Assembly (NCBI GenBank): GCA_937924775.1
Contig: CALDUT010000008.1
Location: 1-64,000 of the forward strand
Length of the DNA: 64,000 nt
Source of the DNA: an uncultured Gemmata sp.
GTDB taxonomy: Bacteria; Planctomycetota; Planctomycetia; Gemmatales; Gemmataceae
Direction: 5' to 3'
In this document: in pieces, positions 31,183 through 43,261 of the stretch
Layout: each line of letters starts with the position of its first letter
Numbering within the stretch: position 1 is the first letter of the stretch
Translations under genes and position numbers: made by a program
Notes under the pieces: generated by a model
What the model was told of the DNA's origin: nothing
Databases searched by the model: none
Seen by the model: the letters and a program-made list of their open reading frames with translations, nothing else

Positions 31183-32223
31183 ATGGCAAACCCGATTCCC
31201 CCAACACCGAGCGATCAACCGAATACCGCGATTTCCGCGGCAGAATTGCGCCGGCGATTGCTGGCGTCCCCTCCGCCCCCGTTGGCCGCGACCGTGGCCA
31301 GCGGGGAAGCGTCTGAGGAATTCGTTGCGGAAATGGAACCGACCCAGCCTGTGGTATCGCCGCAACCAACGCCCACACCAGCAGTTGCGCCGCCACCCAG
31401 CCGTTCCAGTTCTACCGATTTGCTGGCCCGCTTGCGGATGCCCGGCAAGTCCGGGGCCATCCCCGTGCCGCCGCCGCGATCGGGGGTGGCTCCTCTGCCG
31501 TCGGCTCCGGAAGCTTTGCCGGTTCGCCCCCCGGTCAATCGCCGCACGCCACTGACACCGGGGCGGCACTACGAACCCACCATCGCCGGGGCTTTGAATC
31601 ACCTGCACGACCTGACATTAGCTACCAATCGCCACGAGGATTCGCCTTTGGTTGAAATTCAGCGTCTGCGGGCGGAAAATAGTGAATTGCGCTCGCTTCT
31701 TGAAGAAATGAAGCACTTGCTTCAGGAGGCTAGCAATACCGAACAGGAATTGGTAGCCAAACACCAACAATACGAAGAAGCCCTCCAAGCCAAGGATGCG
31801 CAAATCGAGGAGCTGAGCGCTCAGTTGGGAGCCATCGAAGAGCAGATCGCCAAGGGGGAGTTAGTGCCCCCACCGCCGGCTCCCAAAACCCGCACAGAAT
31901 TGGAAGAATGGGCCGACGAACTGGAAAAAGAGAGCGCCAAACTCGCTCAAGAACGCAAACGCCTCGAAGACGAACGCCGGCAGCTACGGGAAGACGAAGA
32001 AGCCCTGGAAAACCAAATGCGGACGATGGAAGTCTCGATGGCACGCGAACGGGCGCTTCTGGCGCGGCAGGAAACCGAACTGCGTCGCCTCAGCGCGGAA
32101 ATTCAACATGAACTGGAACTCCTCCAACGCGGCGACTCGGGCTTACGCGAACAAATGGCCAAGTTCCAACGCCGGGCCCAGGAAGTCATGGCCAATCCCG
32201 GGGGCCCCAACAGCCGCCGCTAA
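31183..32223 (+). CDS. Coiled-coil protein with Pro-rich N-terminus
   Basis: A 346-residue cytoplasmic protein without signal peptide or membrane segment. Residues 1-135 are Pro/Ala-rich and disordered-looking; one short helical motif in it is SSSTDLLARLRMPGK. From about residue 150 to 335 an almost continuous coiled coil runs (IQRLRAENSELRSLLEEMKH, LEEWADELEKESAKLAQERK), broken by a PPPPAPK hinge near 230. This is the shape of a scaffold or filament-like protein. The start at ATG 31183 is preferred over an upstream extension that lacks coding character. Neighbours give no functional clue. Confidence 0.8.
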   Translation: MANPIPPTPSDQPNTAISAAELRRRLLASPPPPLAATVASGEASEEFVAEMEPTQPVVSPQPTPTPAVAPPPSRSSSTDLLARLRMPGKSGAIPVPPPRSGVAPLPSAPEALPVRPPVNRRTPLTPGRHYEPTIAGALNHLHDLTLATNRHEDSPLVEIQRLRAENSELRSLLEEMKHLLQEASNTEQELVAKHQQYEEALQAKDAQIEELSAQLGAIEEQIAKGELVPPPPAPKTRTELEEWADELEKESAKLAQERKRLEDERRQLREDEEALENQMRTMEVSMARERALLARQETELRRLSAEIQHELELLQRGDSGLREQMAKFQRRAQEVMANPGGPNSRR

Positions 32224-40440: not shown

Positions 40441-42177
40441 ATGTCGTATACACTTCGCGATTTACCGTTGCCAGTGAAAGTGGTGACAACTGTCTTTTTG
40501 CTGGCGGTAGGGTTGGGTTACACCTCGGCGATGGTGCAATTGCACATGCAGGATGCGAAGTCGGGCCAGCCGATGCCCACGGTCGACGATGTGATCCGCA
40601 AATACACCGGTAAGGTGAAGTACGACCCCAACAATCCGCCTGCTGGGGCGATGTCGCGGCTCGAAGCTCTGATTACCAGCCCGCTGATTGAAATCAGCTC
40701 AGTGTCAATGGCCGGGGCATTCTTCGCCCAAAGCCGGGCTGAACGCGAACGCAACCCCATTCCCGAAGAACTCTTTCGCGCACAGCGCACCGGCGAGCAG
40801 ACCGCGATTCAACTGTGGATCCACACACCCGAAGACCAGCGCAGGGCCGCCTACAATGCCGATCGCTTCGTACCGCTGCCGGGGAAAATGCCTGCGGCCA
40901 TCACGCCCGAATTCCTCGCGGGCGATTCGATCCGGGTCAAGTCGATTCTGGACAAACGTTGCGGTTCGTGCCACTCGCACGGCGGAGAGAAAGAGAACAT
41001 CCCACTGGATAGTTACGAAGGCTTCCTTCCCTACCTGACGGTGGAAGCCACAGCCCCGGTCGCCGGTTATGTAAAAGTTGAAGAACCCATCAGCATCACC
41101 AAGTTGACGCAATCGACCCACGCGCACCTTCTCAGTTGGGCGGTGCTGTTTTCGCTCACGGGTCTGATCTTTGCCTTCAGCAACTATCCCACCACCGTGC
41201 GGTGCATTCTGGGACCGTGGGTGGTGATCGCGGTCTTCGCCGATACGTCGCTGTGGTGGGCGGCCCGGCTGAGCGATGCTTGGGGGCCATACTTCGCTAT
41301 GGGCATCATCGGTACAGGTGCGGCCGCCGGTTTGGGCTTGGCTGCGCAGATTGTGCTGAGCCTGTTTAACATGTACGGAACCAATGGCAAAATCGCGCTG
41401 GCGGCACTGTTCGCTCTTGGTGCCGGCATCGCAGGATTGCTTTGGAGCAACACCATTCGACCGGCGCTGCTCGAAAAACAACGCGCCGCTCAGCAGGCGA
41501 AAGCGAACCCCCAGTCTACCGATGAATCGAAAGCGAACCCCAGTCCACCGAAAACCGACCCCAACGGCAACGCCCTTCCCGTTGAGCCGAAAGTCTATCA
41601 ACCGGTCAACGACCTTGACCGCCTTCTGACACTGCCCGTCCGTGATGAACGTGGCCAGCCGCTTCCGCCCGACCAAATTCAGTTCAACGGCGGCCCCAAA
41701 GGTAGCATGGTCGCGGCGTTTTTCGATAAGGACAAAGATTATAAGAAGCTGATGGATGACCCCAACATCCCGCCAGAAACCAAAGCCCAGCGGAAAGCCG
41801 AACGCGAGGCCGAACTTGAAGCGATGCAAGCGTGGGTCCGCAGCCCCGAAGCGACTCGCAAACCCGCGTATGAAGCCAACAGTTTCCCAGTGCCCCCATC
41901 CCTCGCCGCCCGCCTGACTTCGGAATTCGTTCACGGCGGCCAGGTGCGGATCAAATCCCTTATTGATACTCGCTGCGGCGTCTGCCACGCTCCAGGGAAG
42001 AAACAAGAGGATTACCCGCTAACAACCTACGACGAACTCGCGCTCTATTTGAAGCCGTTGGCCGCCGAACCGCCTGGACCCGCCCCGGGGCCGACCCGGG
42101 GCCCCGATGGCACTCCCCCGCCCGGCCCGACACCCAATACGCCACCGCCGGTCCCTCCTGCCAAGGACGACGACTAA
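40441..42177 (+). CDS. Membrane di-heme c-type cytochrome-like protein with an internal duplication
   Basis: A 578-residue protein. An N-terminal membrane helix (VVTTVFLLAVGLGYTSAM) is followed by a periplasmic domain with CGSCH (about residue 175), then about four membrane helices (LLSWAVLFSLTGLIFAF, VLSLFNMYG, IALAALFALGAGIAGLLW), a Pro-rich linker, and a second domain with CGVCH (about residue 520). The two heme domains match each other: IRVKSILDKRCGSCHSHGGE versus VRIKSLIDTRCGVCHAPGKK, preceded by IHTPEDQRRAAYNADRFVP versus VRSPEATRKPAYEANSFPVP. It therefore arose by duplication. GGAG upstream supports ATG 40441. An electron transfer role at the membrane is likely; no partner oxidase is nearby. 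Confidence 0.85.
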   Translation: MSYTLRDLPLPVKVVTTVFLLAVGLGYTSAMVQLHMQDAKSGQPMPTVDDVIRKYTGKVKYDPNNPPAGAMSRLEALITSPLIEISSVSMAGAFFAQSRAERERNPIPEELFRAQRTGEQTAIQLWIHTPEDQRRAAYNADRFVPLPGKMPAAITPEFLAGDSIRVKSILDKRCGSCHSHGGEKENIPLDSYEGFLPYLTVEATAPVAGYVKVEEPISITKLTQSTHAHLLSWAVLFSLTGLIFAFSNYPTTVRCILGPWVVIAVFADTSLWWAARLSDAWGPYFAMGIIGTGAAAGLGLAAQIVLSLFNMYGTNGKIALAALFALGAGIAGLLWSNTIRPALLEKQRAAQQAKANPQSTDESKANPSPPKTDPNGNALPVEPKVYQPVNDLDRLLTLPVRDERGQPLPPDQIQFNGGPKGSMVAAFFDKDKDYKKLMDDPNIPPETKAQRKAEREAELEAMQAWVRSPEATRKPAYEANSFPVPPSLAARLTSEFVHGGQVRIKSLIDTRCGVCHAPGKKQEDYPLTTYDELALYLKPLAAEPPGPAPGPTRGPDGTPPPGPTPNTPPPVPPAKDDD

Positions 42178-42304
42178 CGTCACGGCAAATACACCCGAAA
42201 CCAAGCCCAAAATCGGCAGCGGTTGGGAAAAAAATCGTGGCGTAGATGAATCCTTTTTGTGGGTTCCTCCCTCCATAATAAGCGCGGGAGCAAACAATCA
42301 ATCT

Positions 42305-42407
42305 GCCCGACCGTTCCCACGGGCGGACGGTTGGGCCTCCCGCAAGCCTTAGCATGGCGATTCCCTTTCTCTAGTGGCCCGTGAACTTGCAGAAGGAGGT
42401 GTCACTA
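42305..42407 (+). promoter_or_regulatory. Candidate RNA thermometer in the hsp20 leader
   Basis: The hsp20 ribosome binding site GGAGG (42395-42399) can pair with CCTCC (42336-42340), and the adjoining CTTGC (42386-42390) with GCAAG (42342-42346), forming an interrupted 10-bp helix with an internal loop (agaa / c). Just upstream, gcccgaccgt (42305-42314) pairs with acggttgggc (42327-42336) with one wobble. Both would occlude translation at low temperature. This is structure by inspection, not calculation. Confidence 0.45.
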
Positions 42408-42865
42408 TGCTACCTGTACTGCGGAACCATAGCTCGGCGTTGGTTACCAATCCGTGGAACCGGTTGTCGTCGATTTTCGACCACTTCGATCGGATGTTAG
42501 ACGAGGCTTTTGTCACCCCGCTCAACGGGACGTCGGCCTGGACCAACTTCCCAATGTCGTTGTGGGAAGACGAAAACGCGATCTATGTCGAACTCGACGC
42601 TCCGGGTGTCAGTGAAAAGGATATCGAACTGACCGTTCAAGACGGTGATCTGATCATTCGCGGCGAACGCAAAGCGCCCGAACGGAAGACCGGTTACGAC
42701 AACCGCCTGTATGGACGGTTCGCGCAACGGATTGCTTTGCCGGCCGCGGTCGACACCAACAAGGTCGAAGCCAAACTGACCAACGGAGTGCTGACCGTGA
42801 CTTGCCCGAAGTACGAAACGGCCAAACCGCGCCGAATCGCGATCACCGCGGGCAAAGACGAATAA
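42407..42865 (+). CDS. Small heat shock protein, Hsp20/alpha-crystallin family
   Basis: A 152-residue chaperone. Features are an N-terminal arm (NPWNRLSSIFDHFDRMLDEA), an alpha-crystallin domain (about 45-135; IYVELDAPGVSEKDIELTVQ, DLIIRGERKAPE, then YGRFAQRIALPAAVDTNKVE), and the conserved A-x-x-x-n-GVLTVTCPK motif. It holds unfolding proteins during stress. AAGGAGG with a 7-nt spacer gives a strong ribosome binding site at ATG 42407, which may be masked by RNA structure (see the leader entry). It stands alone, followed by the large hairpin at 42942-42985. Confidence 0.96.
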   Translation: MLPVLRNHSSALVTNPWNRLSSIFDHFDRMLDEAFVTPLNGTSAWTNFPMSLWEDENAIYVELDAPGVSEKDIELTVQDGDLIIRGERKAPERKTGYDNRLYGRFAQRIALPAAVDTNKVEAKLTNGVLTVTCPKYETAKPRRIAITAGKDE

Positions 42866-43261
42866 CTTTCGTCATCCCGCCGGCGGTTATCATCAGCTCA
42901 TTCCAAGGATGATTCCACGTCGGAGCAGGATCGCTGTGACGCGTTCTTGAGCGACTCGGTCCTAAGACCGTGTCGCTCAAGAACGTTGTGAAACGAACAT
43001 CCTGGACAACTGATGCATTCACCCACGACGCGGTCCACGGATCGGGTCGCGGGGTTTTGTCTCCCCACTCTCTGGCCGGAGTATTCCAGCGATGCGAGGG
43101 TGGCTGGGTAAGTCCGCCTGAGTGATTTTCACCATTCTGGTGCCGGAGTGGCATTCGCCGATCAGTTGGACTAGCAGCAACAACCGCGGTTCGCTACTCT
43201 GGGGCCGTAAAAGCTGTGCGGATTTTGACCAGCTTGAAGGTTGCTTCTGTGGGGAGCAGGG
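42866..43261. other. 396-bp intergenic region between hsp20 and the ABC exporter
   Basis: It holds the long hairpin at 42942-42985. No coding sequence or RNA gene was recognised; a weak TTGACC-like element near 43222 could drive the exporter genes. Confidence 0.5.
42942..42985. terminator. Long 20-bp hairpin with a 4-nt loop
   Basis: gttcttgagcgactcggtc (42943-42961) pairs with gaccgtgtcgctcaagaac (42966-42984) with a single mismatch, extended by one C-G pair outside; the loop is ctaa. It lies 77 nt after hsp20. It lacks a T-run, so it may be a terminator for both strands, an RNA-stabilising structure or a repeat element. Confidence 0.5.

Follow-up and report, generated by a model that had tools for sequence, protein, structure and literature searches.

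The window, a stretch of 64,000 nt from an uncultured Gemmata sp. (source assembly 4.79 Mb, 27 contigs), carries on its forward strand an hsp20 gene that starts at the ATG at 42407, with the Shine–Dalgarno (SD) sequence GGAGG at 42395–42399 upstream. An in-frame GTG at 42374 was rejected as the start, since the ATG at 42407 has an SD and matches the aligned starts of the orthologs. The nearest relative found was G014, and the window itself is placed in the class Planctomycetia; class and family labels of genomes follow the kinship column of the search set. Downstream, 79 nt 3′ of hsp20, lies a near-perfect inverted repeat (42944–42983; TTCTTGAGCGAC...GTCGCTCAAGAA, inner CGGTC/GACCG), probably a terminator or a repeat element, whose arm has no second exact copy in the window and one copy with a single mismatch at 31942. 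The features of the gene and of its leader are as follows.

42248–42275, forward strand: promoter-like GAATCC-N16-CCTCCA (putative promoter)
42284–42290, forward strand: outer helix, 5′ strand GCGGGAG, pairing with 42337–42343 in the fold of 42282–42420; both strands kept in G014
42305–42336, forward strand: hairpin A, in the MFE structure of every fold containing it
42318–42324, forward strand: loop A element CACGGGC, predicted kissing partner of 42377–42383; 7 of 7 bases complementary, same or similar in 24 other ortholog leaders
42337–42343, forward strand: outer helix, 3′ strand CTCCCGC, holding most of the anti-SD strand first proposed (folding)
42350–42357, forward strand: hairpin B, 5′ clamp strand TAGCATGG, pairing with the start-codon region 42405–42412 (fold and relatives)
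42363–42371, forward strand: hairpin B, anti-SD strand CCCTTTCTC (fold; in relatives, this strand and the SD strand covary)
42377–42383, forward strand: hairpin B loop GCCCGTG, predicted kissing partner of 42318–42324 (comparison of leaders)
42391–42399, forward strand: hairpin B, SD strand AGAAGGAGG, with the SD GGAGG at 42395–42399 (fold)
42405–42412, forward strand: hairpin B, 3′ clamp strand CTATGCTA, including the start codon (fold)
42407–42865, forward strand: hsp20 coding sequence, 152 aa (Pfam PF00011, E 9.8e-22; start aligned with ortholog starts)

The secondary structure of the leader was predicted by folding. The best fold consists of hairpin A (42305–42336) and hairpin B (42350–42412), with both the SD and the AUG paired in hairpin B, a predicted pairing of the kind expected in RNA thermometers. 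Hairpin B (fragment 42349–42415) gave z = −3.23, with none of 200 shuffles as stable, and the whole leader (42282–42420) gave z = −3.39, with 2 of 200 shuffles as stable. In the fold of 42282–42420, the outer helix formed by 42284–42290 and 42337–42343 encloses hairpin A; around its loop element, the window's hairpin A was equalled by none of 500 flank shuffles.

The original prediction was that a two-hairpin leader hides the SD, with CCTCC (42336–42340) and GCAAG (42342–42346) pairing with GGAGG (42395–42399) and CTTGC (42386–42390), respectively. These motifs lie at those sites, all ten pairs match, and the second, upstream hairpin that had been claimed was recovered as hairpin A, at 42305–42336. 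In the predicted fold the SD is indeed hidden in a two-hairpin leader, but the strand hiding it is that of hairpin B (42350–42371) and not CCTCC/GCAAG. When 42290–42420 was folded at temperatures between 20 and 65°C, pairs of the proposed helix had a probability of at most 0.02, as they also did in 42300–42440 and 42240–42440; in the fold of 42282–42420, CCTCCCGC pairs instead with GCGGGAG at 42284–42290. The helix became appreciable only in shortened RNAs, namely 42305–42407, which ends at the A of the ATG (∼0.37 at 37°C, ∼0.7 at 55°C), and 42336–42410 (∼0.3–0.6 at 55–65°C). Moreover, the fragment that forms it, 42336–42400, gave z = −0.16 with 80 of 200 shuffles equally stable, one of its ten pairs is lost in G014, and none of 13 other GGAGG leaders checked contains an exact analogue. 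A thermometer formed by 42336–42346 with 42386–42399 would account for the exact complementarity, and the helix does form if the RNA ends at the start codon, or when hot with the upstream leader absent. With a probability near zero once the start codon and the upstream leader are included, it was rejected as the predicted fold, and we regard it as an exceedingly improbable thermometer.

Conservation of hairpin B was examined next to the nearest relative and then across orthologs. Between the window and G014, all 65 bases of 42350–42414 are identical, as against 121 of 152 third codon positions in hsp20, 85 of 231 bases in 42000–42230 and 103 of 238 in the 3′ flank. Hairpin A differs from that of G014 at 7 of 32 bases; of the 11 stem pairs compared, two carry substitutions in both partners, a third in a single partner, and another no longer pairs. 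The clamp over the AUG retains 8 of 8 pairs in G000 and also 8 of 8 in G091, two of them there as new wobble pairs. A DNA search with the leader through 95 family genomes (its own included) found only G014 besides the window at E<1e-3, the next match being 26 bases in G021 at E 0.0011, so protein orthology and covariance models were adopted; an exact-pattern search was too strict, with a match in one of 59 genomes. Protein orthologs taken from the 95 family genomes yielded a common leader motif, CTTTCTTTC-nn-GTTGCCCGTGAAC-n-GGAAGGAGG.

In a MAFFT alignment of eight leaders (seven distinct), 92.9% of cells in the SD hairpin were paired, compared with no more than 66.3% in slid controls, and RNAalifold recovered 13 of the 14 pairs unaided. 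Three of these 14 pairs had changed on both sides, a count reached by 17 of 500 shuffles. On a MAFFT alignment of 15, RNAalifold gave ten pairs, three with both sides changed in some row. Model-fitted alignments extended the comparison: with 12 distinct rows (A4), 91.1% of cells were paired with five both-side changes (6 of 500 shuffles), and with 18 distinct rows (A7), 88.7% were paired with four both-side changes, against 2.8 in shuffles. In A7, to which divergent rows had been added, the both-side count was matched by 112 of 500 shuffles and the covariation score by 2 of 500. Taken as sequence comparison, these alignments support a hairpin B conserved among orthologous hsp20 leaders, with some compensatory changes.

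Two covariance models were built, R1 from eight leaders with sequence through the ATG and R2 from 15 sequences. Within the family genomes R1 found only its eight training genomes, with the next match at E 0.18. Across 397 genomes of the class, 18 matches at E≤0.1 comprised the eight training members, seven new ones from other families, directly before hsp20 (G230, G299, G176, G137, G148, G330 and G163, identified as Hsp20 by protein profile) and three others: G224 and G226 (prepilin-like on inspection), and G149, where no ORF was seen. Every R1 match of at least 44 bits lies before hsp20, and below this value true and false matches are mixed; G224, at 33.6–33.7 bits, outscores G137, G148, G330 and G163 when R1 is used, and with R2 it outscores G185, G194 and the second copy in G230 (G230b). 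The window scores 57.7 bits with R1 and 53.2 bits with R2, as a training member of both.

R2 gave four true matches (all known) and two false ones in the 170 genomes of f4, and six matches in the 45 genomes of f3, five of them true, including the new G185, G194 and second G230 copy, and one false (G224). In the seven genomes of f9 only G137 was found. Matches in 12 of 392 phylum genomes comprised four true ones, already known, and eight that are not hsp20. The R2 matches outside hsp20 were G271, G358, G684, G128, G562, G512, G474, G726, G781 and G674. Absences in these scans carry little weight, because scans of more than 40 genomes filter more strictly and score few candidates, and seven leaders found through their proteins were missed; R2 does not recognise G102, G013, G167 and G218.

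The two hairpin loops hold exact reverse complements, GCCCGTG (42377–42383) in hairpin B and CACGGGC (42318–42324) in hairpin A. A profile of Hsp20 gave 50 places at E≤1e-35 in the 397 class genomes, and 29 leaders, those ranked 1–27, 29 and 30, were examined in detail. The loop pair was present in 25 leaders from 24 genomes and five families, which are 25 of the 27 best-ranked orthologs, and absent from four of the 29 (G212 and the second G176 copy, both within the top 27, and G159 and G209). At the remaining 21 of the 50 places, the CACGGGC/GCCCGTG pair itself occurred in none. The two elements are spaced 50–62 nt apart in 23 leaders, and 33 and 35 nt apart in the other two.

Pairing in the 25 leaders follows the loop closely, with 17, 23, 25, 25, 24, 25 and 23 leaders paired at the seven successive positions, and 7 and 11 just outside. 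One kissing position is G-C in 22 leaders, A-U in G167, C-G in G102 and G-U in G048. The matched change in G167 is the stronger, as a hairpin A with ACAGGC in its loop is present in the regional MFE structure, whereas that of G102 is not. Uncompensated variants of loop B occur in G089 and G194 (both GCCCGCG) and in G048 (one mismatch), and one end pair of the complementarity is lost in G230 and G218.

The kissing partner had been chosen by eye from the region of hairpin A, and several controls bear on that choice. In the MFE structures, hairpin loops sharing at least six complementary bases were found in 8 of 26 leaders against 0.28 expected, and at least five in 12 of 26 against 1.18 expected (dinucleotide shuffles; related leaders are not independent). 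As a test of the hairpin A loop this is conservative, because small pairs inside loops shorten them. Taken leader by leader, 9 of 18 had a complement whose length recurred in fewer than 50 of 1000 shuffles; for the window, 63 of 1000 shuffles equalled it. Only 11 of 25 leaders had a hairpin A around the element that no more than 25 of 500 flank shuffles equalled, and in G148 this hairpin requires a loop of 25 nt. The isolated 7-bp loop duplex has a calculated energy of −12.6 kcal/mol (ViennaRNA), a value that ignores the cost of kissing.

A generic test asked for at least six complementary bases 30–66 nt apart. Of the 29 family leaders 20 were positive, where shuffles predict 3.76, but so were 24 of the 50 distinct hsp20 leaders outside the family, where shuffles predict 8.3. 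The test is unspecific because ordinary inverted repeats count, and the excess in other hsp20 leaders implies that shuffles understate chance. By a narrow pattern test, both elements occurred in none of 62 other hsp20 rows, four of which (three of G051 and one of G053) carry a variant pair. Since the generic test separates the family poorly from other hsp20 leaders, the case for a kissing contact rests not on complementarity alone but on the recurring sequences and places, their position in loops, the sharp edges and a few matched changes, all of them comparative evidence for a putative contact.

The variant pairs occur in hsp20 leaders of one genus, L075, L080 and L083 (the three copies in G051), L079 (G053) and L176 (G052). 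They are 9-nt pairs around a GCCCG core, GTCGGGCAC/GTGCCCGAC and GTCGCGGGC/GCCCGCGAC, and read as a further matched change on the evidence of the sequences. In G052 and G053 the SD faces GCCTCC, and the MFE structure forms the 9-nt complementarity as a nested helix. G051–G053 may carry a form of this leader with a nested helix.

These structures bear on a reading in which CACGGGC and GCCCGUG would pair as a nested helix in place of hairpin B, making the leader a strand-exchange switch without kissing loops. The MFE structure of the G094 leader likewise uses the long-range helix, as do those of G052 and G053, and the folds of these last two, together with the generic complementarity control, led us to weigh strand exchange up and the kissing readings down. 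An exchange helix would nevertheless be expected to extend, whereas in the 25 main leaders the complementarity ends at the edges of the 7-nt loop, and hairpin B is in the MFE structure of seven of nine leaders folded. We judge strand exchange quite unlikely and retain the kissing of the two loops as the preferred reading.

The upstream sequences were compared across the same leaders. A sigma54-like element lies ∼125–175 nt before the ATG in 18 of 29 family leaders (0.27 expected by shuffles) versus 2 of 62 other hsp20 rows. In its place, the window, G014, G091 and G013 have the GAATCC element with a box 15–17 nt further on; GAATCC followed by a CTCTAA/CATCTA-like box is shared by the hsp20 leaders of these relatives and found in 15 of the 62 other hsp20 rows. 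In the leader of G014 (L034), GCGGAAAAAAAAGGCCACGGCGTGAATCCTTTTCAC with GAATCC occurs twice as a direct repeat, starting 250 and 177 nt before the hsp20 ATG. Soon after the GAATCC element of other hsp20 genes (L010, L011), short GGCGGG..CCCGCC hairpins were seen by eye and are possible mRNA stabilisers. Many genus-level hsp20 leaders, among them L007, L008, L010, L012, L013, L016–L020 and L022, which are without the kissing pair, carry a TTGGCACGCGGCTTGAA-like sequence, a sigma54-like box that has GA where GC is usual. Control of a Planctomycetia heat-shock cluster, including IbpA, by sigma54 is predicted in a 2025 study (PMC12316311), so this part of our observations is not new.

With inverted repeats at a nearly fixed spacing downstream of promoter-like elements, the two loop elements might also be DNA half-sites for a transcription regulator. 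Paired changes in the stems that enclose them are what RNA would be expected to show, and we consider DNA half-sites a highly improbable explanation compared with elements that act in the transcript.

The behaviour of the leaders with temperature was followed in silico. The window's hairpin B stayed closed up to 65°C, and opening of the AUG was 0.38 at 75°C (42282–42430). Across 26 leaders, the mean unpaired probability of the SD at 45°C was at most 0.05 in ten, 0.20–0.38 in 13 and 0.64–0.70 in three (G165, G013 and G212), in which the SD is mostly open; the value of 0.20 for the window corresponds to one bulged base of five. In the ten tightly closed leaders the SD was 0.04–0.43 open at 65°C. 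As a yardstick, the E. coli ibpA leader was 0.2–0.4 open at all temperatures and is uninformative for a comparison of folding. A growth temperature of ∼35°C was estimated from 33 ORFs of the window by a crude composition formula. A hairpin closed to 65°C in an organism estimated to grow near 35°C speaks against simple melting in this leader, and a protein partner could be involved.

Such a partner could make the leader a protein-binding site, for instance for autogenous Hsp20, with the protein contacting the loops and heat acting through the protein and not through melting of the RNA. In addition to the stability of the window's hairpin B, the loops vary less in sequence than base pairing by itself would demand, and a review describes that E. 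coli IbpA leaves its own mRNA on heating (PMC8155344). Base pairing better explains a complementarity confined to the 7-nt loop, as well as the matched variation in G167 and perhaps G102, and we consider a protein-binding site a rather unlikely account next to pairing of the loops.

The leader was compared with known regulatory RNAs. Rfam 15 gave no match in the window at gathering scores and no relevant match in nine loci at E up to 5, and the signature anti-SD strands of both ROSE and fourU are missing, which agrees with the original view that the leader is of neither type. ROSE elements have a U(U/C)GCU strand opposite the SD, a position held by CCCUUUCU in the window. The ColE1 transcripts RNAI and RNAII interact through 7-nt kissing loops, and the leader resembles them in its complete 7-nt loop–loop complementarity, here in cis within one mRNA leader. 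To the ROSE thermometers of alpha- and gamma-proteobacterial small heat-shock genes it is alike in having several hairpins in the leader and a hidden SD, as outlined for ROSE in PMC4166951, and it differs from them in the missing Rfam match and anti-SD strand and in its predicted loop–loop contact. The fourU element of Salmonella agsA shares a U-rich anti-SD strand before a small heat-shock gene; according to the same source four consecutive U pair with AGGA of the SD, while CCCUUUCU has three consecutive U and not four against AGGA. Cyanobacterial hsp17 and hspA thermometers likewise hide the SD or start codon, and that review points to a leader from Anabaena whose additional hairpin may form tertiary contacts (PMC4166951). 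The present leader has no Rfam match to these, and its contact is predicted from the comparison of many leaders.

In searches of the literature, no work joining RNA thermometer, hsp20 and planctomycet was found, and no such leader among the papers listed on thermometers with kissing, loop–loop or pseudoknot contacts and on planctomycet RNA motifs, with subscription papers mostly outside the scope of that search. The available text of PMC11109978 counts two thermometer candidates without naming them. The hsp20 leader thus looks undescribed and is possibly a heat-sensitive switch. The window itself has the SD hairpin recognised by R1 and R2, loops that are complementary at 7 of 7 pairs, and hsp20 directly behind them, which places it among the Planctomycetia hsp20 leaders with predicted kissing loops.

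It appears on balance probable that this leader is a conserved cis-regulatory RNA of the Planctomycetia, in which hairpin B hides the SD, its loop kisses hairpin A, and heat or stress loosens the structure for translation. Comparison of the leaders supports hairpin B, the two complementary loop elements with their spacing, and the place directly before hsp20. From this position, the function of hsp20 and the known thermometers of small heat-shock genes (PMC4166951), we infer that both loops would pair in the same molecule, that closing would repress translation and that heat would open the structure. The leader is most likely a translational heat-shock switch. Hairpin B would pair the SD with a U/C-rich strand, through G-U wobbles in many members, and in the window would pair the start codon as well. 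The 7-nt loop of hairpin B would then kiss the loop of hairpin A, locking the closed state cooperatively, and translation would be low while lock and helix hold. On heating, or under another stress, the tertiary contact and the SD helix would both give way and Hsp20 would be made in a burst.

More tentatively, and with somewhat less confidence than doubt, the leaders may represent a new class of switch, in which an intramolecular kissing loop, joining a 5′ hairpin to the hairpin that hides the SD, keeps a small heat-shock gene locked in a cooperative and heat-sensitive way across the Planctomycetia, often behind sigma54-like promoters. If so, control is expected to fail when a single loop is altered and to return when both are altered to match. 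RNA thermometers have mostly been described as melting hairpins, and a loop–loop lock would add a tertiary contact as the sensor of temperature.
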